From NCBI RefSeq assembly GCF_944324995.1, contig NZ_CALUYL010000022.1, positions 1 to 58,983 on the forward strand: a stretch of DNA of 58,983 nucleotides, given 5' to 3'. This document shows positions 4,243 through 33,249 of the stretch, piece by piece (position 1 is the stretch's first letter; each line of letters begins with the position of its first letter). Under the pieces are notes generated by a model. The model searched no databases. It was not told where the DNA came from and saw nothing but the letters and a program-made list of their open reading frames with translations. This DNA comes from an uncultured Mailhella sp. (GTDB taxonomy: Bacteria > Desulfobacterota > Desulfovibrionia > Desulfovibrionales > Desulfovibrionaceae). The position numbers and the translations under genes are program-made.

Positions 4243-6195
4243 ATGGCAAAGAATAGCAGTAGCATTATTGATACGCCAATAAGGACCAAAAAAGACGATA
4301 AATTAAATGTAAGTATTCATGTCGAGGCCTTGAAAAAATTTCTGCTAGAGGCAGATACTCCACTAACGGTGGCTATTCAAGGCGAGTGGGGGAGTGGCAA
4401 GACATCGTTTATGAATCAGATTTTTGAGGGGCTCTGCGATGATGGACCGTTTATAGGCATTTGGACTCATGCATGGGAATATGCCATTTTAGGAGAGCCC
4501 AGAGATATTTTGATACATATGGTCCAGGGAATTATTCGTGATATTGAAAGAGAGGCGAAAAGATTTGGTAATTCTCTTGATATGAGCGAAGCCTTCAGCA
4601 AGGCCCGTGCAATATTCTTGCAGGTTGCAAAGATCGGCGTCAAAGTTGCTGCTGCACAGGCGGGTCTTTCCGCATCTGATAGCACTGTTTTTTTCCACAG
4701 TGAAGATGATGGCTCTAATATTGAAGCATTGAATAATGCTTTGGAAGCAGCCGTACAGCAGTGCCTTAAAATTACAAAACTTCAGAAGAAAGGCTTTATC
4801 TTCTTTATTGATGATTTAGACAGGCTTGATCCCGTTGTGGCCGTTCAATTCCTTGAACTTATCAAGAATATATTTGAACTTGAACATTGTATTTTTATTT
4901 TGGCCATCGACTATGACGTTGTTGTAAAGGGACTTAAACCTAAATTTGGCGCACGAACGGAAGAGAATGATCGCGAGTTTCGATCATTCTTTGATAAAAT
5001 TATTCAAGTTCCTTTTTCTGTGCCTATGTCGTCATACAATCTTGAAGCATATCTCGGCGATTATTTGTGTAATATCAACTTTATAAAGAAACAGGAGCTT
5101 CAGAGAAGACTGAAACTTGAAGATTTGACATCTTTTATTTCAAATATATCTGAAAATGGAATTACTACCATATCACAGATTATTACAGATGTAACAAACT
5201 ATTCAGTAGGGACAAATCCGAGAGCCATCAAGCGTATGCTGAATACGCTTTCTCTCATCTATATCATTCAAGATGAGTTGCATCATCAGAATTTAAAGAC
5301 AAACTCTGGTGATGATGTTGTTCATGATTTCGATCTGAATGAAAAGATTATATGTTTCTGCCTTGTAAGTCTGCAAATCGCGTATCCAACTTTTTATAAT
5401 TTGCTTTTGAGTAAGCCTCTTTTTACGGCTTGGGATGATGCATTAGCGAGAAAAAGAGGATACAGAGATCTGACGGATGATGAAAAGAACTATTTGCAGG
5501 AATATGATGAATTTGATGAAGACTGGGAAAAATTTATTTTCAGAGCATGTCAGAACAGTTCTTATCTTAGATCAAGGAGCAGCTCAATATCAAGTGTTTT
5601 TAATATAATGAAAGGCATTATTCTTAATGATATTCCAAAATTTTCTCCAGATACTGAAGATAGTGTTATACAGTCAGTCGAGGATGATACAATAGTAAAT
5701 GCTATAACAAATGGTCTTGGTATTGCTTCGGTAACAGGACTCAAGTCTGCTGAAGACCAAGACGAAAAGAGCACATATAATAGGATTCGCTATGAAACTC
5801 TTGAGAAATTTGATGCTTCTATTGATCAGCCGCTTAGAGATTCTTTTAATCTTTTCAAAATTATAAAGAGTCGATTTGATAACTTGTTTGGAGAAAATCG
5901 TATAAAATATGAATATAGCAAGAATAAAATTTCAGTAAAAATTGCACAAAATAAGACCTATCAGACCAACCTTGCACGAATAAAGCTGAGATCCTATGGA
6001 AAACTGAACATAACGGATTTTAATGGAGTTGCTCATATATTAGATGCTTCGAATCAGGATCTTAAGGAAAGCGTATGGAAAGAGTATTTGATTTACTTTA
6101 ATAAATACTCGAAAGATCCCATCCCTATGATATCCGATGAAGTCTCTGAGCAATCCGAACAGAATGTTTATCTGGAAGGTATAGAAAAAGAGTAG
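4243..6195 (+). CDS. KAP-family P-loop NTPase
   Basis: Protein of 650 residues. Walker A is GEWGSGKTS (residues 47-55). Walker B is FIFFIDDLDR (185-194), including the DDLDR signature of KAP NTPases. A moderately hydrophobic Ala-rich stretch at 124-142 lies between the Walker motifs, where many family members have membrane segments. The C-terminal half is alpha-helical and charged with no domain I recognise. KAP proteins include the F-plasmid phage-exclusion protein PifA, and many bacterial members sit in mobile islands, so a role in defence against phage is plausible but inferred. Start: GGAGTAAGAGTC precedes the ATG. The gene is lower in GC than the chromosome and stands alone, ending in a strong hairpin. 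Confidence 0.85.
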   Translation: MAKNSSSIIDTPIRTKKDDKLNVSIHVEALKKFLLEADTPLTVAIQGEWGSGKTSFMNQIFEGLCDDGPFIGIWTHAWEYAILGEPRDILIHMVQGIIRDIEREAKRFGNSLDMSEAFSKARAIFLQVAKIGVKVAAAQAGLSASDSTVFFHSEDDGSNIEALNNALEAAVQQCLKITKLQKKGFIFFIDDLDRLDPVVAVQFLELIKNIFELEHCIFILAIDYDVVVKGLKPKFGARTEENDREFRSFFDKIIQVPFSVPMSSYNLEAYLGDYLCNINFIKKQELQRRLKLEDLTSFISNISENGITTISQIITDVTNYSVGTNPRAIKRMLNTLSLIYIIQDELHHQNLKTNSGDDVVHDFDLNEKIICFCLVSLQIAYPTFYNLLLSKPLFTAWDDALARKRGYRDLTDDEKNYLQEYDEFDEDWEKFIFRACQNSSYLRSRSSSISSVFNIMKGIILNDIPKFSPDTEDSVIQSVEDDTIVNAITNGLGIASVTGLKSAEDQDEKSTYNRIRYETLEKFDASIDQPLRDSFNLFKIIKSRFDNLFGENRIKYEYSKNKISVKIAQNKTYQTNLARIKLRSYGKLNITDFNGVAHILDASNQDLKESVWKEYLIYFNKYSKDPIPMISDEVSEQSEQNVYLEGIEKE

Positions 6196-7890: not shown

Positions 7891-8033
7891 CGAAAAAGTG
7901 TACTTTTTTGACGCTTCTCATAATGTCAGTTTCTGCTTAGTCCTATAGCAGGGAACCTCCGAAAATTCCAGCAAAAAAATAACGTCGATGCTGATCCGGC
8001 TTTCAGCAGCCAAAAAGTACACTTTTTGGACGC
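7891..8033 (+). promoter_or_regulatory. Pair of inverted AAAAAGTGTACTTTTT sites upstream of the recombinase-like gene
   Basis: Site 1 core AAAAAGTGTACTTTTT is at 7893-7908; site 2 core AAAAAGTACACTTTTT at 8012-8027 is its exact reverse complement. Each core is itself two A/T arms around an asymmetric six-base centre (GTGTAC). Both are followed by GACG. Centre-to-centre distance is 119 bp, and site 2 ends 25 bases before the start codon. The same arrangement, 117 bp apart, lies upstream of the autotransporter gene (32450-32592). Possible roles are inverted recombination sites of a promoter switch or paired operators; I see no clear -35/-10 pair between them. Confidence 0.6.
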
Positions 8034-8051: not shown

Positions 8052-8918
8052 ATGACGGGCAAGAAAAATATCATTGTCGTAGCCGATGGGAATGATATCA
8101 ATCAACTGTGTCTGTTCGATAACTTTGTCAAAAGTAAATATCTTCCCTACGTACAAAAATATAAGCGCAGCTGGAAGACGGACGAACGTTATCTGAACAG
8201 GCATATACTGCCGTATCTTGGTGACTGTCTTTTAACGGAAATATCTGAAGAAAAACTCGGCGCATGGCTCTCTGCTCTGGAAAATAACGGACTGTCCTCC
8301 AGTTCACGCTATCGTATGTTCTGGCTGACGAAGTATATTCTGAACTTTGCCGTGCGTACGGGAGCACTCAACAATGGAGATGCGTTCCGAAATATGGTCG
8401 TGCGCAGAAATGAGCCGCAAAAATCGCACAGAATGCTTACACGCGAAGAGACATTGAAGTTGATTCGTCTGCTTGAAGAATATGCCGATCGTCCCAGCGC
8501 GCAGGCCATTCATCTGCTGCTGCTTACCGGAGCCGGCAAGTCGGAAATTCTCCACGCCCGCTGGCAGGATGTGCATCTGCGACGCGCCGTTCTTGCTGCG
8601 AGAACGGTCTATACCGGCCGGAGCAGACTCATTCCGTTGAGTCCGGAAGCGGTCAGACTCATTCGTCGCCTTCCTAGGCGCAAAGACGTGCCGTGGCTCT
8701 TTGCGTCGTCGTCCGGAAAGCCTCTCACGTCTGTTTTTTACACCTGGAATCTCCTGCGAACAAAACTGGGGAAACCGGAACTGCGCATTCAGGATCTGCG
8801 ACATGTTTTTGCAACGTTTGCTTTTATGAATACTCAGAAGAAAGAAATTTTGTCTATTATCGGATGTTATCAACGTAAATATATAAACGGTATATGTAAT
8901 AATATGCTTATAGAATAA
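8052..8918 (+). CDS. Tyrosine recombinase-like protein lacking catalytic residues
   Basis: Protein of 288 residues. Residues 22-110 look like the SAM-like core-binding domain of phage-type integrases; residues 125-270 are the catalytic fold. The first catalytic Arg is replaced by Gly162 (TGAGKSEIL for the usual TGxRxSEIL), the HxxR box reads Q247-D-L-R250-H251, and the LGH box reads IIGC (Cys272). After residue 272 the sequence no longer matches the family, so the nucleophilic tyrosine is not identifiable. It is therefore probably unable to recombine DNA, but could still bind it. It is preceded by the paired inverted sites at 7891-8033. It may be the relic of the island integrase or a protein kept for DNA binding. 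No neighbouring gene is co-transcribed with it. Confidence 0.8.
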   Translation: MTGKKNIIVVADGNDINQLCLFDNFVKSKYLPYVQKYKRSWKTDERYLNRHILPYLGDCLLTEISEEKLGAWLSALENNGLSSSSRYRMFWLTKYILNFAVRTGALNNGDAFRNMVVRRNEPQKSHRMLTREETLKLIRLLEEYADRPSAQAIHLLLLTGAGKSEILHARWQDVHLRRAVLAARTVYTGRSRLIPLSPEAVRLIRRLPRRKDVPWLFASSSGKPLTSVFYTWNLLRTKLGKPELRIQDLRHVFATFAFMNTQKKEILSIIGCYQRKYINGICNNMLIE

Positions 8919-9049: not shown

Positions 9050-9799
9050 ATGCTGAATATTGTACTTCCTATGGCTGGCAGAGGTAGCAGGTTCTCAAAG
9101 GCAGGGTATACCATTCCTAAGCCTTTTATTCCTATTCATGGAGTTCCCATGATTAAGGTAGTGATAGATAATCTTACTCCACGATGCGAGCATCGATTCA
9201 TCTTCATTTGCCAGAAAAAGTATCTGGAGACATATGATGTTGAACGAAGACTCCGTTCTTACACAAGGAATCCAGTAATCATTGCTATCGATGGTATTAC
9301 AGAGGGGCAGGTATGTACGGCTCTTTGTGCGCGATCCTTTTTTAATAACGATGATCCCCTGATGAGTGCCAATACCGATCAGTACATTGATATCGATATC
9401 AATGAATATCTTGATGCCATGTTTTCTCGAAATCTCGATGGTATGATTATGACCATGAAATCAACAGATCCGAAATGGTCATATGCACGTACCGATGCGC
9501 AGGGACTGGTCGTGGAAACTGCTGAAAAGAAGGTTATCTCTGAAGATGCTACAGTAGGCATATTCAACTTCGCTCATGGATCAGACTTAGTCCGTTCTGC
9601 AGAAAAAATGATTGCAGATAATATTCGTATTAATGGAGAATTTTATACTTGTCCATGTTATAATTATCTTATCAAAGAAGGGAAACGTATAGGTATATAT
9701 CCTATAGGCAAAGAATATTCCGGTATGTACGGACTTGGAATTCCTGAAGACCTGGAATTTTTTATTTCGCACCCCATCTCGCAGAAGGTCATAAGATGA
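9050..9799 (+). CDS. Sugar or polyol nucleotidyltransferase
   Basis: Protein of 249 residues with the nucleotidyltransferase Rossmann-like fold. The N terminus carries the nucleotide-binding loop GRGSRF (residues 10-15) and the IPKPF lysine (K24). An acidic metal-binding motif is in SANTDQYIDID. Enzymes of this type join a sugar, polyol or related phosphate to CTP, UTP or GTP; the product here cannot be named. It is the first gene of a nine-gene plus-strand operon; its stop overlaps the next start by ATGA. Together with the HAD hydrolase and the diesterase-like gene downstream it probably makes an activated precursor for surface polysaccharide. Confidence 0.8.
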   Translation: MLNIVLPMAGRGSRFSKAGYTIPKPFIPIHGVPMIKVVIDNLTPRCEHRFIFICQKKYLETYDVERRLRSYTRNPVIIAIDGITEGQVCTALCARSFFNNDDPLMSANTDQYIDIDINEYLDAMFSRNLDGMIMTMKSTDPKWSYARTDAQGLVVETAEKKVISEDATVGIFNFAHGSDLVRSAEKMIADNIRINGEFYTCPCYNYLIKEGKRIGIYPIGKEYSGMYGLGIPEDLEFFISHPISQKVIR

Positions 9800-10416
9800 A
9801 GATACTTTCTCATCGCGGTTGGTGGAAGACTCTTACAGAAAGAAATAAGGCAACGGCTTTTCAACGATCTTTTGCCGCTGGATTCGGCACGGAAACAGAT
9901 GTTCGAGACATTCGCGGTACGCTTGTTGTTTCTCACGACATGCCCTCTGGGGATGAGTTGCTCTTCGAGGATGTTTTGAAAATCATGGATGGGCGCAATC
10001 TTCCTCTGGCCATCAATATCAAGGCCGACGGTCTGGTCGAGCCGCTTCTGGAGATGCTGAACAGATATCGGCACACATGCTATTTTACCTTCGATATGTC
10101 GATTCCTGATCTTGTTGTTCAGACGGACTATGGAGCGAATGTCTTCACAGGACTAAGCGATATCATGCCTACCCCTGTACTTTTTGATCAGTGTCGTGGC
10201 ATATGGCTGGACGCTTTTTTTTCCGAATGGTACGGAGCGGAGCTCATCGATAGTCTGCTGGATGACGGCAAGCAGATATGTATCGTTTCTCCCGACTTGC
10301 ATAAAAGAACTCCATTTGCACACTGGGAAGTCATACGCTCATGTCGAGGATTTCAAGACAGTCGACTTATGCTCTGCACTGATATGCCTGATAAGGCCAA
10401 GGAGTTCTTTGCATGA
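9796..10416 (+). CDS. Glycerophosphodiester phosphodiesterase-like protein
   Basis: Protein of 206 residues. The N terminus has the family's HRG motif (H6-R7-G8), an E-x-D pair in ETDVRD and a His-Asp in VVSHDMP, the spacing expected for a GDPD TIM barrel. It is shorter than usual GDPD enzymes and has no signal peptide, so it acts in the cytoplasm. Placed between a nucleotidyltransferase and a phosphatase in a polysaccharide operon, it more likely works on an intermediate of a nucleotide- or phosphate-linked building block than on lipid breakdown products; this is inference. Start and stop overlap both neighbours by four bases, indicating coupled translation. Confidence 0.7.
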   Translation: MKILSHRGWWKTLTERNKATAFQRSFAAGFGTETDVRDIRGTLVVSHDMPSGDELLFEDVLKIMDGRNLPLAINIKADGLVEPLLEMLNRYRHTCYFTFDMSIPDLVVQTDYGANVFTGLSDIMPTPVLFDQCRGIWLDAFFSEWYGAELIDSLLDDGKQICIVSPDLHKRTPFAHWEVIRSCRGFQDSRLMLCTDMPDKAKEFFA

Positions 10417-11045
10417 AAGTAAAGGCTGTGCTTTTTGATATGGACGGCGTCCTTATTGAGGCGAAAGAGTGGCACTATGAGGCTCTTAATCAGGCGCTTG
10501 GAATTTTTGGATATGAAATAAACAGATTTGAGCATCTCACAAGCTATGATGGTCTGCCTACAAGTGTAAAGCTTAATAAACTTACGGTTGAGAAAGGATT
10601 GCCGGAGGCTTTGCATGGCTTCATCAACGAAATGAAACAACAATATACCATTGGGCTTATCCACAGATTCTGTAAACCCCGCTTCAATCATGAATATGCA
10701 CTCTCCAGACTGAAAGCCGAAGGCTACAAGCTGGCGGTCGGTTCCAATTCCATCCGACAGACAGTACATCTCATGATGGAAAAGGCGAAGCTGATTCAGT
10801 ATTTCAACCTGATTCTCAGCAATCAGGACGTCAGACACCCTAAGCCCTCGCCTGAAATCTACTTGACTGCCATGGAGCGACTGGGAGTACGCCCCGAAGA
10901 GTGCGTTATTGTTGAAGACAATGAGAACGGCATCAGAGCGGCGATAGCTTCCGGCGGACATGTGCTTTCCGTCAAAACCGTCGATGACGTTACGTATGAG
11001 AATATCATAGCAAGAATATACGAAGTGGAGGATGGAGTGTCATGA
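10413..11045 (+). CDS. HAD-superfamily phosphatase
   Basis: Protein of 210 residues. All HAD motifs are visible: DMDGV with nucleophile Asp9 and Asp11, the serine motif in AVGSNS, the lysine in HPKPSPEIY and the acidic pair in VEDNENG. A helical cap lies between motifs 1 and 2, as in beta-phosphoglucomutase-like phosphatases. Probably dephosphorylates or isomerises a small sugar or polyol phosphate that feeds the two nucleotidyltransferase-like proteins in the operon. Translationally coupled on both sides (four-base overlaps). Confidence 0.85.
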   Translation: MKVKAVLFDMDGVLIEAKEWHYEALNQALGIFGYEINRFEHLTSYDGLPTSVKLNKLTVEKGLPEALHGFINEMKQQYTIGLIHRFCKPRFNHEYALSRLKAEGYKLAVGSNSIRQTVHLMMEKAKLIQYFNLILSNQDVRHPKPSPEIYLTAMERLGVRPEECVIVEDNENGIRAAIASGGHVLSVKTVDDVTYENIIARIYEVEDGVS

Positions 11046-11776
11046 ATATAGTGTTTCTCATGGGAGGCAAAAATGATTCCCAGTCAAGCGGAGATTACCC
11101 TATTTATATGGCGGAAGTTCATAATCACCTGATTCTGGAAAATCAAATAAATTACGTTCAGGGCATATCTCCAGAACGTATCATTTTTTGTGTAAAAAAG
11201 CATGATATAGAACAGTATCATGTGGATTTTATTGCCAGAGCGCTGACAGATAACGCTGTTATCGTGCCTATCTGCGGTCAGACGAAAGGTGCCATTTGCT
11301 CAGCTTTGCTTGCCTGTTCCTATATCGACAACAACGAGGAACTTATTCTCTGCTCCGTTGATGACTGCGTTGATCAACCTCTGCGAGAGATTTTACAGAG
11401 TTTTCGTGAACAGAAGTGTGATGCCGGTATCGTGACGTTTCGCTCCGTCCATCCACGCTACTCCTTTGTAAAAATAGATGACAACGGAACAGTTTGTGAA
11501 TTTTCAGAAAAAAAACCAATCAGTAAAAATGCTTTGGCAAGTATATATTATTTTTCTAAAGGCAGTGATTTTGTAGATTGTGCTAAAAATGTCATACGTA
11601 AGGATAATACTATTAATGAAAAATTTTATATTAGCCAAACGCTAAATGAAATGATTTTGAAACAAAAAAAAATAACTGTCCATTCTATTGATAATCAGTT
11701 TTTTCATCCTATGAAAACAGAAATGCAACTTGCAAGCTACCTAAAAAGACTGGAAAATTCATTGGAGAGCGTATAA
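11042..11776 (+). CDS. Degenerate nucleotidyltransferase-like protein
   Basis: Protein of 244 residues with the same overall plan as the product of 9050-9799: ICCxGQTKGAICSALLA-like middle segment, SVDDCVDQPL in place of the acidic motif, and the sequence FVKIDDNGTVCEFSEKKPIS matching the product-binding strand. However, the nucleotide-binding loop is lost (LMGGKNDSQSSGDYPIYM instead of GxGSRF...PKP). It may be a non-catalytic partner of the first enzyme or use a different donor. Codon use turns AT-rich in its second half. The start codon of the next gene begins on the last base of its stop codon. Confidence 0.65.
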   Translation: MNIVFLMGGKNDSQSSGDYPIYMAEVHNHLILENQINYVQGISPERIIFCVKKHDIEQYHVDFIARALTDNAVIVPICGQTKGAICSALLACSYIDNNEELILCSVDDCVDQPLREILQSFREQKCDAGIVTFRSVHPRYSFVKIDDNGTVCEFSEKKPISKNALASIYYFSKGSDFVDCAKNVIRKDNTINEKFYISQTLNEMILKQKKITVHSIDNQFFHPMKTEMQLASYLKRLENSLESV

Positions 11777-12810
11777 TGGTACAGCGTCCTCTGGATAAAG
11801 ATATCTCCGTCGTTATCCAAGGAGCACTTTCCTCCCATACGCCGGAGGTCTTGCGTTCCGTCCGACGTTTTCTGCCAGGATCTGAGCTTATTCTTTCCAC
11901 TTGGAAGGGGACTGATGTTGGTGGACTGGATGCTGATATCGTTATTTTAAATGATGATCCCGGCGGATGCGTATGCACTCGAAGCGGGGTAGTGCAGAAT
12001 CTGAATCGGCAGCTGGTATCCACCCGTGAAGGCATACTGAGAGCGTCTCGGAAATTCGTGCTCAAGCTTCGATCGGACACAAGCCTCACCGGTACGGCTT
12101 TTCTGGACTTCTGGACGCGCTTTCCTCAACGAGAAAAAGCTTTTGCACTGTTTTCCAAACGTCTGCTCATCTGTTCTTTCTATACGCGTCCGCCTTTTTG
12201 GAGAAAGCAGGCTTATCTCTACCACCCTTCCGACTGGACAAGCTTCGGTCTGAAGGAAGACATGCTCCTTCTTTGGGATGTTCCTCCGGTTCAGGAACCT
12301 GAATTTTCACAATATTTTCGTAAAAAATATCCGAATGAAAACTGGACGAAGTTTTTTCCCGAGCAATATTTCCTCATAGCCTGCATGGCAAAGCTCGGTG
12401 TTTCTTCCGGCGTACAGAGTCAGAGAGATTATAGTAAAGATCTGGCTCGGATCTCTCAACATATTCTTTTAAATAACTTTGTTATTCTTGATTACGGAAA
12501 ACAATTTACTATTTTCTGTGCAAAATATCCTTCAATATACAGTGATTCAAAAGTACAGTCATATCGTCATTTTCTTCTTTTTTATAAAAAATATTGTGAC
12601 TGTTTTTATCCTGTTTCAAGAAAACTTGTATGGCGTGAGCTGCTTGGAATAGAAGATTCACTTGATAATATAAAGTTTCATGTTTTTCGTATTAGAAAAC
12701 ATAAAAATAAAATATTTGAAGTGATAGGGCAATCACTGGGAATATTATATTATATTATGATTATTTTATTCCGCGCTGTGTTCTTTTTATACAGACTTAT
12801 TATTTTTTGA
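11776..12810 (+). CDS. WavE-family lipopolysaccharide synthesis protein
   Basis: Protein of 344 residues. The start VVIQGALSSHTPEVLRSVR, the SELILSTWKG strand, the NLNRQLVSTREGI segment and KFVLKLRSDT are characteristic of the WavE family, glycosyltransferase-like proteins of lipopolysaccharide core or O-antigen loci. A hydrophobic C-terminal stretch (about residues 318-344) suggests membrane attachment at the inner leaflet. The C-terminal third is markedly AT-rich. A second WavE-like protein is encoded at 15617-16648. The transferred sugar is unknown. Confidence 0.8.
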   Translation: MVQRPLDKDISVVIQGALSSHTPEVLRSVRRFLPGSELILSTWKGTDVGGLDADIVILNDDPGGCVCTRSGVVQNLNRQLVSTREGILRASRKFVLKLRSDTSLTGTAFLDFWTRFPQREKAFALFSKRLLICSFYTRPPFWRKQAYLYHPSDWTSFGLKEDMLLLWDVPPVQEPEFSQYFRKKYPNENWTKFFPEQYFLIACMAKLGVSSGVQSQRDYSKDLARISQHILLNNFVILDYGKQFTIFCAKYPSIYSDSKVQSYRHFLLFYKKYCDCFYPVSRKLVWRELLGIEDSLDNIKFHVFRIRKHKNKIFEVIGQSLGILYYIMIILFRAVFFLYRLIIF

Positions 12811-12820
12811 ATGGAGTGTT

Positions 12821-13147
12821 ATGAAACTTGCGAAACTCAATGAAATGACAAAGGGCTGGTTTATCGGTGACTTTTATCCCAGTCTGCTGAGAACACAAGA
12901 CGTCGAGGTTGCCGTTAAAACTTACCGGAAGGGAGACTATGAAGAAGCTCATTTTCATAAGGTCGCAACTGAATATACCGTTATAATATCTGGCAGAGTA
13001 AAAATGAACGGCAAGGAATACACTAAAAATGATATTATTATTATAGAACCTTGTGAATCTACAGACTTTGAATGCCTTGAAAACGATACTGTAAGCGTTG
13101 TGGTGAAAATTCCAGGATCGCCCAACGATAAATATGTTCTCAAGTAA
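12821..13147 (+). CDS. Small cupin-fold protein
   Basis: Protein of 108 residues with a single cupin barrel: the first motif includes EEAHFHKVATEYTVIISG, the second ends in ECLENDTVSVVVKIPG. The HxH and Glu could bind a metal. Single-domain cupins in polysaccharide operons can be sugar isomerases, epimerases or binding proteins; the sequence does not decide. The start follows GGAG by five bases and the gene is ten bases after the WavE-like gene. Confidence 0.75.
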   Translation: MKLAKLNEMTKGWFIGDFYPSLLRTQDVEVAVKTYRKGDYEEAHFHKVATEYTVIISGRVKMNGKEYTKNDIIIIEPCESTDFECLENDTVSVVVKIPGSPNDKYVLK

Positions 13148-13158
13148 GAGGAGCATAT

Positions 13159-15624
13159 ATGCACAAGCGAATACTTCTCTGTCTGAACAGAGACCAGAGC
13201 AAAGCTTTTGACTATTCCGTTGCTCCCGAGGATGCCATGCTGATGCTTGGTGGAAACAGCGGAAACAACGTATTTCAATACACGCTTCAGAATTTGCTCC
13301 GGGGCGAAGACTGCCAAGTAGATGTAGATACGGATTTTTTTGTGGATTTTTCCGCCTTTCGGGCAAGAGCAGACGCCATTAACGCTGAATATGATGCCTT
13401 GGTTTTTTCTCCGGCCAATGTATTTGCTAAATATGCTGTTAATGCCGGACTCATATTTTGGCGCGACAACATAGAAAAGCTGCGCATCCCGGTATATGCC
13501 ATAGGGGCCGGAGCCCAGTCCGACGCCTCATTTTCCCTCTCCTTTGTTGATGAAATTCGAGAGCAGGCTACAGCCTTCATCAGGAGTATTCTGAATACCG
13601 GAGGCACACTGGGGCTCAGGGGCTATTTCACTGAAAGCGTCGTGCGAGCGCTGGGCGTCCAGCCCGATGACTACACGGTCATCGGCTGTCCTTCTATCTT
13701 TCTCAAGGGCAGAGGCCTGCGCATAGAAAAGCCGAAGCTCGCCAGAGAGGAGCTCAGAGTCGCCGTGAACGGATTTCGAGCCTGGAATGATAGGGCGTTT
13801 CACCGGCATTTTGGGGAATACCCGGGTTCCTATTTCGTCTGTCAGGAAGAATTCTATCGCCTGCTGTACGCTCCTGATAAACTGACGTGGAAAGAGCTTC
13901 AATATCTGTCAGATCCCTCGGAACTCTGGCTCTCCATGTACAGACAAGACAGGATAGCCCTGTATGGCGACATCCCGGCATGGTTCGAGGATTTGAAGCG
14001 CAGAAAGATCAACTTTTCCTTCGGATGCAGAATTCATGGCAATATTCTCCCCATACTGGCCGGCATTCCGTCGTATCTGGATGCGTTGGATTCACGAGTC
14101 AGGGAGCTGGGGGAGTTCTTCTCCATACCTGCCAGGATCTTTGACCGTAATCCTGAAGACCTCTATGAGCTCTACGAGCAGGCTGACTACACGGCGTTCA
14201 ATGCCGGCTTTGCGGCCCGCTATGATAATTTCGCCGCATTCATGAACAACTGCGGACTTCCGTGTGCTCCGGTATCCAGTGAACCGTCTCACGGCGTCGT
14301 TCCTCGCATAAAGGACGACGATAAGGATATTATCGAGCTTGTCGCCTCCTCCGTCAGCTACAACCCTTCCGTATTCAGGAGAGACATGGACACCAGAGAC
14401 GTCGTCTTTGTGGCGCATGAATTCGGTCTGTATAAGGGTCATGGAGGAATAGCGTCATATTTATATAATATATGTAAATATTTAGTAAAAAATACGAATA
14501 TAAATGTTCATGTCATATCTCCGACTGTAGATGAAACATGTGATCTTTTGAAATTTAAAAATTTTTTTATGCATCATATAAGCGGAAATATTCTCGATTT
14601 GAGGGGAAAAGTTTTTTCCATCTGCGCAGATATACAGCCTCAATATATAGAATTTGCAGAATATGCCGCTCTTGGCATGAACTGTACCATGAATAAGGCA
14701 TCTGGTCAGGATACTTTTAAAAATACTCTGCTTGTCACGAACAATCATACGGCCTCACGGGAATGTTATGAATGGTCTTCAGGGATACCGTATGAATATG
14801 CATCGGCGAGTCTTATGCAGAATGTTGCCTGGGAAAAAATACAGATGGAAACAAGCGACGTATGTATTGCTCCTTCAAAATTTCTTGGAAAATATGTTAA
14901 AAAGCAATACCAGCTCAAAGACAAAGTTCTCTTTTTTATGAATCCATTTATGACAAAAATGAAAAATAAGAGCGAGCTCCAGAGTGAACTTGATGAAAAA
15001 TATGATTTATCTCATTATAATGATTCCTTTAATATAACTCTTGTGACGCGTTTTGAAGGACGCAAGAATCAAAAGCTTCTGGTAAAGGCGTTTTTGTCTC
15101 TTATACATGCATCGACAGAGAATATTCGACTTTTTCTTGCCGGCGGCAGCACATGTAATCCTCATACGGGCGAGGACTACAGAGAAGAGATATGGCGGTC
15201 TCTTCCCGAAGATTTCAAAGACAATGTCCTGATTTATGATTTTCTATCGCAGTCCCAGCAGGAACCGCTCATGGCCGTCACAGATCTTACGGTCATGCCG
15301 TCCGTATTTGAAAACCAACCCATGGCCATGATTGAAACCACCATGCGCGAAATTCCTGTCATTGCTTCCCGCTACAGCGGCTGTGCAGACTATCTGCTGC
15401 CTGAAATGCTTTTCGATCCCTTCGTGGAAGGCAGTCTGACCGAAGTCGTCGGCAATTTCATGCGCAAATCCGCTGAAGAGCGGGCAGCCGTAGCCTTGCT
15501 TCAGAAAAGACGGCTTTCCGCCATTATTTCTCCTGAAGTGTCCATTCTTCCCCGTTTTTCCCTCTCTCCTCGACGTACTCGCAGCGGTCTGAATCTCGAT
15601 TTGCAGGAGCTTTATCATGAATAA
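13159..15624 (+). CDS. Fused polysaccharide pyruvyltransferase and GT4 glycosyltransferase
   Basis: Protein of 821 residues with two enzyme halves. Residues 1-400 resemble polysaccharide pyruvyltransferases (CsaB/WcaK type): GGNSGNNVFQYTLQ near the start, YAIGAGAQ, a GTLGLRGYF motif, GCPSIFLKG, and the GCRIHGNILPILAG histidine motif. Residues 415-800 are a GT4 (GT-B fold) glycosyltransferase: GGIASYLYN start, FNITLVTRFEGRKNQ, and the donor-binding Glu motif in FENQPMAMIETTMREIP. The fusion suggests a sugar is transferred and a pyruvyl (or other) group added in one step. The DNA switches from moderate to low GC at about 14460, near the domain junction, so the fusion may be recent. Confidence 0.8.
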   Translation: MHKRILLCLNRDQSKAFDYSVAPEDAMLMLGGNSGNNVFQYTLQNLLRGEDCQVDVDTDFFVDFSAFRARADAINAEYDALVFSPANVFAKYAVNAGLIFWRDNIEKLRIPVYAIGAGAQSDASFSLSFVDEIREQATAFIRSILNTGGTLGLRGYFTESVVRALGVQPDDYTVIGCPSIFLKGRGLRIEKPKLAREELRVAVNGFRAWNDRAFHRHFGEYPGSYFVCQEEFYRLLYAPDKLTWKELQYLSDPSELWLSMYRQDRIALYGDIPAWFEDLKRRKINFSFGCRIHGNILPILAGIPSYLDALDSRVRELGEFFSIPARIFDRNPEDLYELYEQADYTAFNAGFAARYDNFAAFMNNCGLPCAPVSSEPSHGVVPRIKDDDKDIIELVASSVSYNPSVFRRDMDTRDVVFVAHEFGLYKGHGGIASYLYNICKYLVKNTNINVHVISPTVDETCDLLKFKNFFMHHISGNILDLRGKVFSICADIQPQYIEFAEYAALGMNCTMNKASGQDTFKNTLLVTNNHTASRECYEWSSGIPYEYASASLMQNVAWEKIQMETSDVCIAPSKFLGKYVKKQYQLKDKVLFFMNPFMTKMKNKSELQSELDEKYDLSHYNDSFNITLVTRFEGRKNQKLLVKAFLSLIHASTENIRLFLAGGSTCNPHTGEDYREEIWRSLPEDFKDNVLIYDFLSQSQQEPLMAVTDLTVMPSVFENQPMAMIETTMREIPVIASRYSGCADYLLPEMLFDPFVEGSLTEVVGNFMRKSAEERAAVALLQKRRLSAIISPEVSILPRFSLSPRRTRSGLNLDLQELYHE

Positions 15625-29209: not shown

Positions 29210-29465
29210 GGAAAAAGGGGAAGGCGGCAAGGCGCGCAGCAGGCATTCCGCCGGAATTTTTAAAGCAATGCTTTAAGTTTTTCCAAAAAGGGGAGCGCGG
29301 AGGAAGAGCCCTGCGGGGTTGCGGCGCGCGGCATGCGGCGGGCGGCGCAACCTTGCGGCATCGGGCGACGATGCGCCCCGCCCGGGGGATCGCCTTCGTC
29401 CTTCGTTTCCTTCTGCGATGCGGCGGTGCGGAACGCCGGGCCCGCCGCAGAAGGAAGGTCGGGGC

Positions 29466-32408
29466 TTAGAAGCGCCACTTGAGACCTGCGGAAACGTTGT
29501 ATTCGCGGGTGAAGTGTTCGCCGTGTTCGCGTTCCGCCTGAACATAGAGCCGCAGGTTGTCCGTGGCCTGCCAGTCTGCGCCGAGGCCGTAATAGACGCG
29601 GGTGCCTTCCATCTCGGAATTGAGATGCAGGTCGTTGATGCGTGCTTTCTGTTCGCCGAGGAATTCGTGATTCACGCCGACCTTCACATAGGGCTGCATG
29701 TAGCGTTCCCCGTTGCTGCCTTTCAATGCGAACTTTTTGCCCAGCACCACGCCTGCGCGACCGGTGAGGGTGTTCATGTCGCTCTGCTCTATGGTCATGC
29801 CGTTGCTGGTGCCGAACTCGCCGCCCCGCACCCAGAACCACGCAAGCTGCACCTGCGGCTCCACGAACCAGCTGTTCAGGCCGTTGTTGCTGAAGGCGAA
29901 GTCCATGCGGCGACCGCCTTCCAGTGAAGCGCCAACGCCGTATGAGGAGCGGTCGTCATGCACCTTGACGCCGTTGAGCATGGCGGTGCGTATTTCATGT
30001 TCGTACCAGTCCATGGCAGTCACGGCGTCCAGATACCAGCCGTCGACATGCAGCCAGGTGGAATAGAAACCCGCGCCCACGCTGTTCAGATCGCCGAATC
30101 CGCCCCAGCGTTCCTGCACTCGCTGATCGGCATGCCCGCTGCGTATCTGCATGCCCAGAATCCAGAGATGATCCTCGTTTGTGGAAACGGCCCTGTCGTA
30201 GCCCAGTGAACCGCCTGTAAGGTGTTGTGTGAAGCCGTAGCCTGCAAAGCCGTCGAGACGCGATTTATCGGCAAATCCGCGCACCCACAGACCGGTTTGC
30301 GTACCGTAGCGCACTTCGCCGAGTCTCTTGCGCAGATCGGTGAGCTGTCCGTACCACAGGGCATAGTGTCCGGCCAGCGAGGAAAGGGCTGCTTCGGTTT
30401 CTCCGGTGGGGGTTTCCGGACGGGAGGGCGTACCGGGCTTGTCGGGATCGGGTTGTTCTATGGAAGTGCGCTTGAGATACCATTCCTGCGTGTCGGGCGT
30501 GGCTGAGCCGTCTCTTTGTGCCAGTGCATAGAAGTAATTGCCCTGTTCCACAAGATGCTGCGTGCTGCCGTTGACCTCGCACTCGTTGGCGAGCGAGAAG
30601 GTGCCGTCGCCGCTCTGCTGCTGAACAATGAAGGCGTTCATGGCTTCGCGTGAGGGATCTGCGCCGGTGGGATTCACATACACGCCGTGATTTCCCGTGC
30701 CGCGGCCGATGATGATCTGATCGGTCAGATCGTTTTCGATGTCGGTATTGACGTTGAATATGCCGCCTTCGCCGGAGAGCGTTTCGGCCGTGAGCGTGCG
30801 GAATCCGGAAGCCGCCTGGGCGTTGTCGTAGGTCATGTCCACAATGCCGCCCCTGCTCACCACAAGATTGGAGACCGGAGAACTGCCGGTCATGTTCCAG
30901 CGCGCGCCGTTGTTGAAGGTGAGGTCGATCTTGCTGCCCTTGTTGCCGAACTCGTTGATGCCGGTGAAGAAGGATTTGTCGTTCAGCAGATGTGCCGTAA
31001 TGGTGTTGAGCGTTTCGTCGGCATCTACAGTGGTGTCGTAGTTGCTTCCGAAAATATAGGCCGTGGAGGTTTTGCCGGCCACGATGTTGCCGGTGAGCTG
31101 CACGACGGCATCGGGATTCTCGGAAGAGTTCACCAGAATGGTCGAGCCCTTGCCGGAGGTGTTGCCCACGGCGTTGAGTACGATGCTGCCGTCGGCAATC
31201 AGGCCCTGCTGAAAGTCGATGCTGCTTCCGGCTCGCGCCAGGGCGGAAATGGATACGGCTCCCGGATCCGCCTCTGTATGATAGGTGACGTCACCTCGGA
31301 AGGCGGCGTTGGAATACCAGTAAAGGTAAGACCCTATGGACTCTGCGTCTCCTTCGGCGATTGTGGTGATGTCGGCCGTGTTGAAGAGCGAATCCGCTAT
31401 ATAGTACATGTACATGCCGTAGTTGGATACGGCGTTGGGGAACGTTTGCAGAGACGTTCTGTTCTCGTATTTTTCAGCCCCGGAAGCATGAATGGAAAGA
31501 TGTCCGTCGACGGTGATGGACTGCTCGCCTGCGCTGTTTCTGTTTCCGTCTTTGAGGTTGATGCCGATGGAGTTGTTTCCGCCCTCGGTAACTATGGCAA
31601 GGTCTTTTTTGAAGTGAAGACGTCCGTCATTGGTACGGGCGCCGAGTCCGTAGTTCTGATCGCTGTAGTAGTTGCCTATGCCGTAAGTATAGTATGGTGC
31701 ATTTCTGACTGTTATGCTGGTGTTGCCGTCAACGGTGAGGTCGGCATTGTCGTTGACCAGAATGCCCATGGAGCGGTTGCCGTTCAGCATGGTGACGGCG
31801 AGGTCGCCTTTAATGTCAAGATCCGTGCCCGTGCCGGTCATGGAGATGCCTTTCTGGGAGTTGAGCCCGTAATCCTCATTATCGGCTGCGGGGGGATTGG
31901 TGCTGGTGTGCAGATAGTTGTCTACCAGAATAGTGGTATTGCCGCCTACAGACATGACGCCCCCGTTCTTCATGTCAATGCCTTCACGGGTGATGTCCCA
32001 CTTGCTTCCGGATATCCTTTCAGGGGCTATGGTGATTGACAGATTCTCGGCAACGTCGAGTGAACTCTTATTCCAGATAAGTACGCCGGTTCCGTATTGC
32101 TTGTGGTTGGAGCCGAACGTGCCTTCATTCGGGCGGAAATCCTCATCGTCAAAGTTTTGAGTATTGTCGCTGAAACGGCCGGTGGCGGTAATGTTTATGG
32201 TAAGGTTTCCGTCGTATTCTTTGGAATAGTCCAGAAAGTGAATGTTTTTTTGTTCCAGCGTGATATCTTCGGAAAAAGCTGGTTGGGCATTGACAAGAAC
32301 CAAAGTTCCGGAAAACAGCGTTATGGAGAGAAGAGTAAAAAATCTGTATTTTTTTATAAATGCTCGATATCTGATGACAAAATTTTTTATACAGTTTCTT
32401 GACGTCAT
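29466..32408 (-). CDS. Autotransporter (type Va) outer membrane protein
   Basis: Protein of 980 residues. The first 45 form a signal peptide with a charged extension and a hydrophobic core (FFTLLSITLFSGTLVLVNA). Residues 50-680 are a passenger of repeated Asn/Gly/Thr-rich strands such as GNTSITV and GNNSIGINLKDGN, typical of a beta helix. A linker rich in Pro/Glu/Thr (about 660-690) leads to a 12-stranded beta barrel ending in YNVSAGLKWRF with terminal Phe. Likely an adhesin or other surface factor. Start at 32408 has GGAG six bases upstream and is preferred to the in-frame ATG at 32423. Its upstream region carries paired inverted sites identical in plan to those before the recombinase-like gene. 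Confidence 0.9.
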   Translation of the reverse strand: MTSRNCIKNFVIRYRAFIKKYRFFTLLSITLFSGTLVLVNAQPAFSEDITLEQKNIHFLDYSKEYDGNLTINITATGRFSDNTQNFDDEDFRPNEGTFGSNHKQYGTGVLIWNKSSLDVAENLSITIAPERISGSKWDITREGIDMKNGGVMSVGGNTTILVDNYLHTSTNPPAADNEDYGLNSQKGISMTGTGTDLDIKGDLAVTMLNGNRSMGILVNDNADLTVDGNTSITVRNAPYYTYGIGNYYSDQNYGLGARTNDGRLHFKKDLAIVTEGGNNSIGINLKDGNRNSAGEQSITVDGHLSIHASGAEKYENRTSLQTFPNAVSNYGMYMYYIADSLFNTADITTIAEGDAESIGSYLYWYSNAAFRGDVTYHTEADPGAVSISALARAGSSIDFQQGLIADGSIVLNAVGNTSGKGSTILVNSSENPDAVVQLTGNIVAGKTSTAYIFGSNYDTTVDADETLNTITAHLLNDKSFFTGINEFGNKGSKIDLTFNNGARWNMTGSSPVSNLVVSRGGIVDMTYDNAQAASGFRTLTAETLSGEGGIFNVNTDIENDLTDQIIIGRGTGNHGVYVNPTGADPSREAMNAFIVQQQSGDGTFSLANECEVNGSTQHLVEQGNYFYALAQRDGSATPDTQEWYLKRTSIEQPDPDKPGTPSRPETPTGETEAALSSLAGHYALWYGQLTDLRKRLGEVRYGTQTGLWVRGFADKSRLDGFAGYGFTQHLTGGSLGYDRAVSTNEDHLWILGMQIRSGHADQRVQERWGGFGDLNSVGAGFYSTWLHVDGWYLDAVTAMDWYEHEIRTAMLNGVKVHDDRSSYGVGASLEGGRRMDFAFSNNGLNSWFVEPQVQLAWFWVRGGEFGTSNGMTIEQSDMNTLTGRAGVVLGKKFALKGSNGERYMQPYVKVGVNHEFLGEQKARINDLHLNSEMEGTRVYYGLGADWQATDNLRLYVQAEREHGEHFTREYNVSAGLKWRF

Positions 32409-32449
32409 GAAAATCTCCAGCATATTTCCTTTAAAAGTTAAAAATTTGT

Positions 32450-32592
32450 TGACAAAAAAGTGTACTTTTTTGACGAAAACAAAAAAAAATATTCAACTGA
32501 TATTTTTTATAGACAGTTATATGGATTATTGTTATCTTTTACATCAAGTTTTGTGCTGTTGCGCATAGGCAAAAAAGTACGCTTTCTCGCCA
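32450..32592 (-). promoter_or_regulatory. Pair of inverted AAAAAGTGTACTTTTT-type sites upstream of the autotransporter
   Basis: The gene-proximal site has core AAAAAGTGTACTTTTT on the plus strand (32455-32470), embedded in CAAAAAAGTGTACTTTTTTG. The distal site, AAAAAGTACGCTTTCT (32572-32587), is an imperfect inverted copy. Centres are 117 bp apart. Read in gene direction, the order and orientation (GYGTAC distal, GTACAC proximal) are the same as at 7891-8033. The AT-rich interval could hold a promoter (TTGATG at about 32548 on the minus strand with TATAAC-like boxes), but none is clear-cut. Confidence 0.6.
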
Positions 32593-32697
32593 ATGTGCAG
32601 TGTGTTGCAGTGTCGCTCGGCGTCATGTTTTTTCTTTTTCCCCTCTGTGCCGCAGTGACGGAGGCGGATAGGCTCTCTGGAAAAAGGGAGCTTTTTT

Positions 32698-33249
32698 ATG
32701 GGAAATTTTGAAAAAGCACATGAGTTCACATCGCGGTGGGAAGGCGGACGCGTCGGGCATGTTGCCGATTCCGGCGGCTCCGCACATGACGGCGTCAGTC
32801 CGACCGCTCTCAAGGGGCAGGAAGATCAGGGCGATATTGATGAAGACGGCGACCTTGAAGGCGACTTCGACGCCGACGATTCCGCCTTCACGCCGGAGGG
32901 CGGGCGCAGGCGCATGCGCCGCAGGTTCTGGGATGCGCTGGGCCTCGACGACGTGAAGCCTCTCTGCGCCGTGGTTGTGTATGACACTGCCGTGAACATG
33001 GGAGCCGACTGCGCCTGTCGCCTTGTGCAGAAGGCTCTCGGTCTGCGCGCGGACGGCGTATGGGGGCCCGTGACCCTTGCCGCGCTGCGCACCTGCAGCG
33101 ACCGCAAAACCGCCGTGGCCGTCTGCCATCTGCGCCGGGCCCGCTACCACGAACTCGTCAACGGCAACGGCAGCCTGAAACCCTTCCTCGACGGGTGGCT
33201 CCGTCGCGTGGATTCCCTCGAAAAAACCGTGGAAGCCGACAACGGCTGA
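32698..33249 (+). CDS. GH108 lysozyme-like muramidase
   Basis: Protein of 183 residues. The N terminus has the catalytic Glu in WEGGRVGHVADSGG, matching the EGGxxxDxGG motif of the glycosyl hydrolase 108 (ZliS) family. After an acidic insert rich in Asp and Glu (about residues 44-66), DTAVNMGADCACRLVQKALG followed by ADGVWGPVTLAAL is the peptidoglycan-binding-type second domain of this family. It has no signal peptide, as with phage endolysins. It could be a phage relic or a wall-opening enzyme used with the secretion genes nearby. GGGAG lies seven bases before the ATG. Confidence 0.85.
   Translation: MGNFEKAHEFTSRWEGGRVGHVADSGGSAHDGVSPTALKGQEDQGDIDEDGDLEGDFDADDSAFTPEGGRRRMRRRFWDALGLDDVKPLCAVVVYDTAVNMGADCACRLVQKALGLRADGVWGPVTLAALRTCSDRKTAVAVCHLRRARYHELVNGNGSLKPFLDGWLRRVDSLEKTVEADNG

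Follow-up and report, generated by a model that had tools for sequence, protein, structure and literature searches.

Inverted GT-centred sites upstream of an autotransporter gene of an uncultured Mailhella sp. suggest an invertible promoter of the serine-invertase type

Organization of the autotransporter locus

The window, i.e., the whole stretch of 58,983 nucleotides of an uncultured Mailhella sp. that was analysed (contig C22), contains on its minus strand a gene whose product combines a pertactin-like part with a C-terminal beta-barrel, as expected of an autotransporter (type V secretion). Two short inverted sites lie immediately upstream of this gene, and the features of the locus are as follows.

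29466..32423, minus strand: autotransporter gene, 985 amino acids, would-be target of the switch (Pfam PF03797 and PF03212; TIGR01414)
32451..32474, minus strand: putative proximal crossover site, with an exact core at 32455-32470 and the extended palindrome GACA-core-TGAC
32471..32571: inner segment of 101 bp that would invert, by analogy with the reversed segment of contig C9
32510..32538, plus strand: sigma-70-like promoter TAGACA-17-TATCTT, located within the segment and directed away from the autotransporter gene (consensus scan)
32568..32591, minus strand: putative distal crossover site, with two mismatches in the core (32572-32587) and the GGC/GCC outer arms kept
32670..32693, plus strand: terminator-like hairpin before a GH108 gene (one found in the scan, 0.4 expected)
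~29427..32627: unit of autotransporter and switch, absent with a clean junction at the corresponding locus of genome G127 (genome comparison)

The proximal core is an exact copy of AAAAAGTGTACTTTTT, and the distal core, with its two mismatches, reads AGAAAGCGTACTTTTT on the minus strand. The spacing between the two sites is 117 bp, compared to 119 bp for a second, exact pair of the window at 7893/8012, and at both loci, read toward the downstream gene, the distal site has the GT form and the proximal site the AC form, with 31 bp between the latter and the start codon at the autotransporter gene and 24 bp at the gene starting at 8052. The near-identical spacing, the common order and orientation and the imperfection of the distal site had already been pointed out in a sequence-only reading of this DNA, and all of them were confirmed here. 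A short stretch in front of a gene is thus bounded by inverted repeats, which is the arrangement of an inverton.

A chance origin of the pair was considered and rejected. The window holds 13 matches to the site with up to three mismatches, where both-strand readings of one palindromic place give two counts, whereas 100 shuffles gave 0.22 on average and never as many as 13. Furthermore, the expected number of inverted partners with two mismatches around one exact site, counted within a band of 36 bp on each of its sides, is approximately 5e-5, an estimate based on the four independent two-mismatch places of the genome, the 32572 site being one of them; the genome-wide pairing described below argues in the same direction. 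Since a site that adjoins an invertase gene in another bacterium (locus L194) combines the same two substitutions as the distal site, they need not inactivate the 32572 site.

Distribution of the site in the genome

The sequence-only reading had suggested a genome-wide search for paired copies of the motif, and had named random, unpaired scatter as the outcome speaking against a regulatory role. In the genome (2,916,202 bases in 44 contigs), AAAAAGTGTACTTTTT occurs in 11 exact copies, every one of which belongs to one of six inverted pairs; the remaining place among the twelve is taken by the imperfect distal site 32572-32587. No such scatter was found for the exact copies. All six pairs lie in front of genes, with the following positions and spacings.

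C2:123046/123176, 130 bp: upstream of an autotransporter gene
C4:106895/107014, 119 bp: upstream of a Xer-like gene
C9:40864/40982, 118 bp: upstream of a Xer-like gene
C12:10138/10257, 119 bp: upstream of a Xer-like gene
C22:7893/8012, 119 bp: upstream of a Xer-like gene
C22:32455/32572, 117 bp: upstream of the autotransporter gene described above

Within each pair the asymmetric GT centre points in opposite directions. Autotransporter domains were found five times in the genome, two of them in the switched genes. When up to three mismatches were allowed, the genome gave 33 + 31 matches compared to 32 + 33 for a reversed control pattern, and loosely matching single copies are thus to be regarded as background. 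Across the family, exact 14-mer pairs were present in 6 of 199 genomes, the present one included, and the viral contigs of IMG/VR contained 0 exact site pairs.

The sister switch and the Xer-like genes

The second pair of the window, hereafter the sister switch, precedes the gene that had been described as recombinase-like.

7893..7908, plus strand: distal site of the sister switch, exact match
7909..8011: inner segment of the sister switch, matching that of C9 at 84/103 positions inverted and at 48/114 un-inverted
8012..8027, plus strand: proximal site of the sister switch, AC form, exact match
8052..8918, plus strand: Xer-like gene, 288 amino acids, key catalytic residues replaced (sequence comparison), apparent target of the sister switch
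9050..15624, plus strand: polysaccharide-type genes following the Xer-like gene, namely nucleotidyltransferase, WavE-like and glycosyltransferase genes (domain matches)

Similar genes follow the Xer-like genes of the other contigs, i.e., a glycosyltransferase and a nucleotidyltransferase on C4, a glycosyltransferase and a UDP-galactopyranose mutase on C12, and mannose-1-phosphate guanylyltransferase and phosphomannomutase-type genes on C9. A gene for a KAP-family P-loop NTPase (4243-6195) lies upstream of the sister switch.

The catalytic residues were compared in 23 Xer-like relatives and three controls. With respect to XerD and to the genome's own recombinases, the clade of the 8052 gene shows the replacement of Arg I in 19 of 19 members, with no Lys at the aligned column, and of the first His in all 18 members holding that region, while there is no conservation of the tail in which the nucleophilic Tyr lies, some members stopping short of it. 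More distant relatives retain Arg I, the first His and the Tyr motif in four cases out of four, the second Arg being lost in one of them. The 8052 gene thus lacks the residue set of an active tyrosine recombinase (Arg, Lys, His, Arg, His/Trp, Tyr), and is for this reason probably not the enzyme of the switch; it rather seems that the Xer-like genes are what the switch controls. The dN/dS values of the Xer-like genes, between 0.11 and 0.39 in 34 of 36 comparisons (the remaining two giving no finite dS), indicate that the proteins are maintained by selection. The last 15 to 30 residues vary from copy to copy in 8052-8918 and its paralogues, the remainder being well conserved.

At seven of eight clade loci in other Mailhella genomes, the exception being L094, an 18-bp inverted pair with at least 15 matches was found, two of the seven pairs being the GTGTAC site itself. 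Among random stretches, 9 of 150 contained a pair with at least 15 matches and 1 of 150 a pair with at least 16, and one of the four distant relatives had a 15-match pair, located far upstream. It follows that the Xer-like protein goes with invertible-looking promoters in general. Xer-like relatives stand behind inverted repeats of other sequence at L095 and L109 (G103), L096 and L110 (G138), and L125 (G163); it looks as if the same type of cluster had been put under different recombinases. Xer-like relatives were also recorded in 88 plasmid records, all below 60% identity.

Reversed segments among paralogous promoters

C4, C12 and the sister switch have inner segments that align in one direction, and the segment of C9, read in gene direction, is their reverse complement, the C9 flanks outside the sites not being reversed. 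When inverted, the C9 segment is identical to those of C4, C12 and the sister switch at 97/103, 93/103 and 84/103 positions, respectively, compared to 48/115, 50/117 and 48/114 un-inverted, and 200 shuffles gave no more than 63 matches. A similar case is found in genome G155, where the promoters on C53 and C140 share 94/103 positions inverted and 51/119 un-inverted. Both orientations are therefore present among the paralogous promoters of the genome under study and of G155, and the reversed segments are the mark of past exchange at the sites, a mark that is silent on present switching.

The C2 switch has one orientation only across G000, G127 and G191, and the inner segment 32471-32571 does not resemble those of the remaining five. 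In G127, the only other genome of the same species compared, the autotransporter and its switch are absent from the corresponding locus and the flanks are directly joined.

Site anatomy and the candidate invertase

In 22 pairs from nine genomes, the bases separated by one base from the two ends of the 16-mer are C in 43 and G in 44 of 44 sites. These positions played no part in the finding of the sites, and their conservation extends the site to a palindrome of approximately 24 bp around the asymmetric GT centre; the conservation of the GT centre itself is partly due to selection, as the site scans demanded a GT-type centre. The 22 pairs were drawn from 25, after dropping G127_255_AT, which nearly duplicates the C2 pair, and G115_C114 and G163_C28, which have the opposite site order. 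A palindrome of about 24 bp with an asymmetric 2-bp centre is the layout typical of the sites of small serine recombinases, and the sites are best read as putative places of crossover for a DNA invertase of the small serine type.

A gene for such an enzyme is present on C2, where a serine recombinase gene of 201 amino acids stops 10 bp before the pair of the other autotransporter. Its product contains the resolvase-type catalytic domain PF00239, with motifs conserved in 11 aligned sequences, as in serine DNA invertases, and matches a PHROG DNA invertase; against the Mpi family model NF009949 it scores 47.2 bits, below the curated cut-off of 272, and falls outside that family. A second copy of the invertase, 72% identical to the C2 gene and also found in G127, lies on C1 (L068:4365-5201), where 10 kb around it contain no site (up to three mismatches) and a scan of 3.2 kb gave no strong pair of inverted repeats. 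The C2 serine invertase or its C1 copy is a better candidate enzyme than the 8052 gene.

The association of site and enzyme was examined at 80 loci carrying relatives of the C2 invertase, the best 80 of at least 587 relatives in named genomes, which by their titles belong mostly to Clostridia-type gut bacteria and to a few others, including two Mailhella. A site lies within 700 bp of the invertase gene at 53 of the 80 loci, 27 having none within that distance, and an inverted pair occurs at 38, although some of these pairs are weak (e.g., that of L162), since up to four mismatches were allowed. The density of sites is 107 in 109,057 bp near the invertase genes, compared to 50 in 546,419 bp far from them. 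As judged from this co-occurrence in sequence, the site type is shown to be linked to this invertase family. Relatives of the invertase were also found in 220 phage records, all below 60% identity.

Candidate promoter and likely present orientation

A promoter scan of 32400-32760 gave the match at 32510-32538 as the only one, compared to 0.6 expected by chance. The same type of consensus scan found no promoter within the reversed segment of C9. Many of the switches share a promoter block composed of a T tract, CTGGAA and, after 17 to 18 bp, a TATA-like element, and for the segment 32471-32571 this block favours the direction away from the gene by 3.5 bits only. A motif model trained on oriented segments, with each scored segment excluded from its own training set, was applied to 25 segments, of which 4 would point toward the gene and 21 away; for 18 of the 25 (4 toward, 14 away) the gene that sets the direction is Xer-like or codes for an autotransporter, for three it is only a neighbouring invertase, and four are unassigned. 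The match at 32510-32538 and the preference of the block weakly indicate OFF as the likely present state at 32471-32571. The hairpin at 32670-32693 (fold z-score of -2.49 for 41 nucleotides) could stop transcription in the OFF state ahead of the GH108 gene.

Proposed mechanism and alternative explanations

Taken together, the pairing of the sites, their linkage to an invertase family and the past inversion at sister promoters lead us to consider it quite probable that the two inverted sites serve a serine invertase for crossover and flank a 101-bp invertible promoter, which would be switched in trans by an enzyme encoded elsewhere. The C2 invertase or its C1 copy would bring the 32455 and 32572 sites together, cut at the central GT and rejoin the ends, reversing the promoter segment, so that in one orientation the autotransporter gene would be transcribed and in the other the promoter would face away from it. 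A single site type would thus serve six switches, those of two autotransporters and those of four Xer-like genes followed by polysaccharide-type genes. From these comparisons we infer the activity of the 32455/32572 pair, the acting enzyme, the place of the promoter and the OFF orientation; the action of one enzyme on several distant promoters is suggested by the identical sites at six loci and the two invertase copies. The proposal of one regulatory circuit for the on/off control of a surface protein, made from the sequence of the window, is supported by the shared architecture, the pairing in front of genes and the past inversion at sister promoters, whereas operation of the switch by the 8052 gene is not supported.

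The main alternative is a decayed or locked switch, once invertible, in which the imperfect distal site is inactive and the autotransporter gene is fixed in one state. We regard it as unlikely, although it would account for the two mismatches of the distal site, for an inner segment differing from those of the other five switches, and for the fact that no flip was seen at 32471-32571, where G127 lacks the unit. Against it, the distal site has kept its outer arms and shares its two substitutions with the L194 site next to an invertase gene. That the sites are instead paired transcription-factor sites looping the promoter, with no recombination at present, would agree with their palindromic nature, near-constant spacing and location in front of genes; the reversed inner segments at C9 and in G155, the oppositely directed GT centres of all six pairs and the occurrence of the site type next to serine invertase genes in other bacteria make this reading very improbable. 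As four of the six pairs precede a Xer-like gene, the 8052 protein or one of its three paralogues could be thought to be the recombinase itself; this candidate was rejected on the catalytic residue losses described above, which contrast with the residues kept by the more distant relatives, and on the association of the clade with unrelated inverted repeats as well, and we give it hardly any credence.

Returning to the invertible promoter switched by a serine invertase, it is possible to hypothesize, as a guess that we hold to be doubtful, that the polysaccharide clusters have co-opted tyrosine recombinases no longer active as enzymes and encode them as their first product, each of which would bind at or near its own switch and hold or read its state. 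The serine invertase would flip the segment and the dead tyrosine recombinase would lock it, with the autotransporters behind the same site flipping without a lock.

Comparison with known systems

The sites of the Hin/Gin type are inverted and palindromic, with a 2-bp centre. Like the phage and flagellar DNA invertases of this type, the candidate enzyme is a small serine recombinase and matches a PHROG DNA invertase; the distance between the sites in Mailhella is approximately 101 to 114 bp.

In Bacteroides fragilis, Mpi is reported to invert 13 regions, seven of which are polysaccharide promoters (PMC4747536). The Mailhella switches resemble this system in that one serine recombinase would act on many distant promoters, including those of polysaccharide genes (PMC4747536), and the C2 invertase matches the Mpi model, but weakly (47 bits against the cut-off of 272). 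Different from Mpi, autotransporters share the site in Mailhella, the polysaccharide clusters start with a Xer-like protein, and the action in trans is presumed. An autotransporter gene preceded by an invertible promoter element is also known from uropathogenic Escherichia coli, where UpaE is under the control of the element ipuS, on which shared tyrosine recombinases act (PMC6083910), whereas the type in Mailhella is that of a serine invertase. A survey of invertons in gut bacteria linked groups of invertons and invertases by proximity (PMC11892184), and the Mailhella switches are like the surveyed ones in having promoters between short inverted repeats with invertase genes nearby. According to its main text, the strongest link in Clostridia involves tyrosine-type invertases; that text does not mention Desulfovibrio or Bilophila, and the supplements could list Clostridia sites (PMC11892184).

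Among the matches listed by a literature search over titles and the beginnings of abstracts, with supplements and subscription papers outside its scope, there was nothing on an inverton of Mailhella or Desulfovibrio or on this site. The feature is in our view real and, as promoter inversion, of a known kind; its setting in Mailhella is new, in that autotransporters and polysaccharide-type clusters share a single family of sites. Part of this setting is a tyrosine recombinase, degenerate as judged by its catalytic residues, that heads each polysaccharide-type cluster. If our reading is true, Mailhella, a gut genus of the Desulfovibrionaceae, would be a further case in which one site family coordinates surface proteins and polysaccharides by inversion. 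A GT-centred site of about 24 bp by a small serine invertase gene would provide a simple signature for finding switches in other gut bacteria, and the Xer-like genes draw attention to recombinases with degenerate catalytic residues, a conserved family at the head of switched clusters.

Genes adjoining the sites

In other bacteria, the genes 3' of the invertase-linked pairs (L133-L212) are diverse, with three of the helicase/restriction type and two each of the AMP-binding, leucine-rich repeat and IS605 types, and sugar transferase, EAL, methylase and TadZ-like genes once each (25 of 55 families among the matches listed). Surface genes are therefore not the rule beside such pairs elsewhere. Downstream genes were listed for 36 of the 38 pair loci (without L162 and L177), with an open frame in 35, and 33 were scanned (without L167 and L179).

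At the C2 locus of two genomes of the same species (L019:10235-13144 and L070:2165-4960), the invertase is 98% identical and the switch nearly identical and in the same orientation. The autotransporters of the two genomes at this locus match at only approximately 35% over passenger residues 172 to 680.
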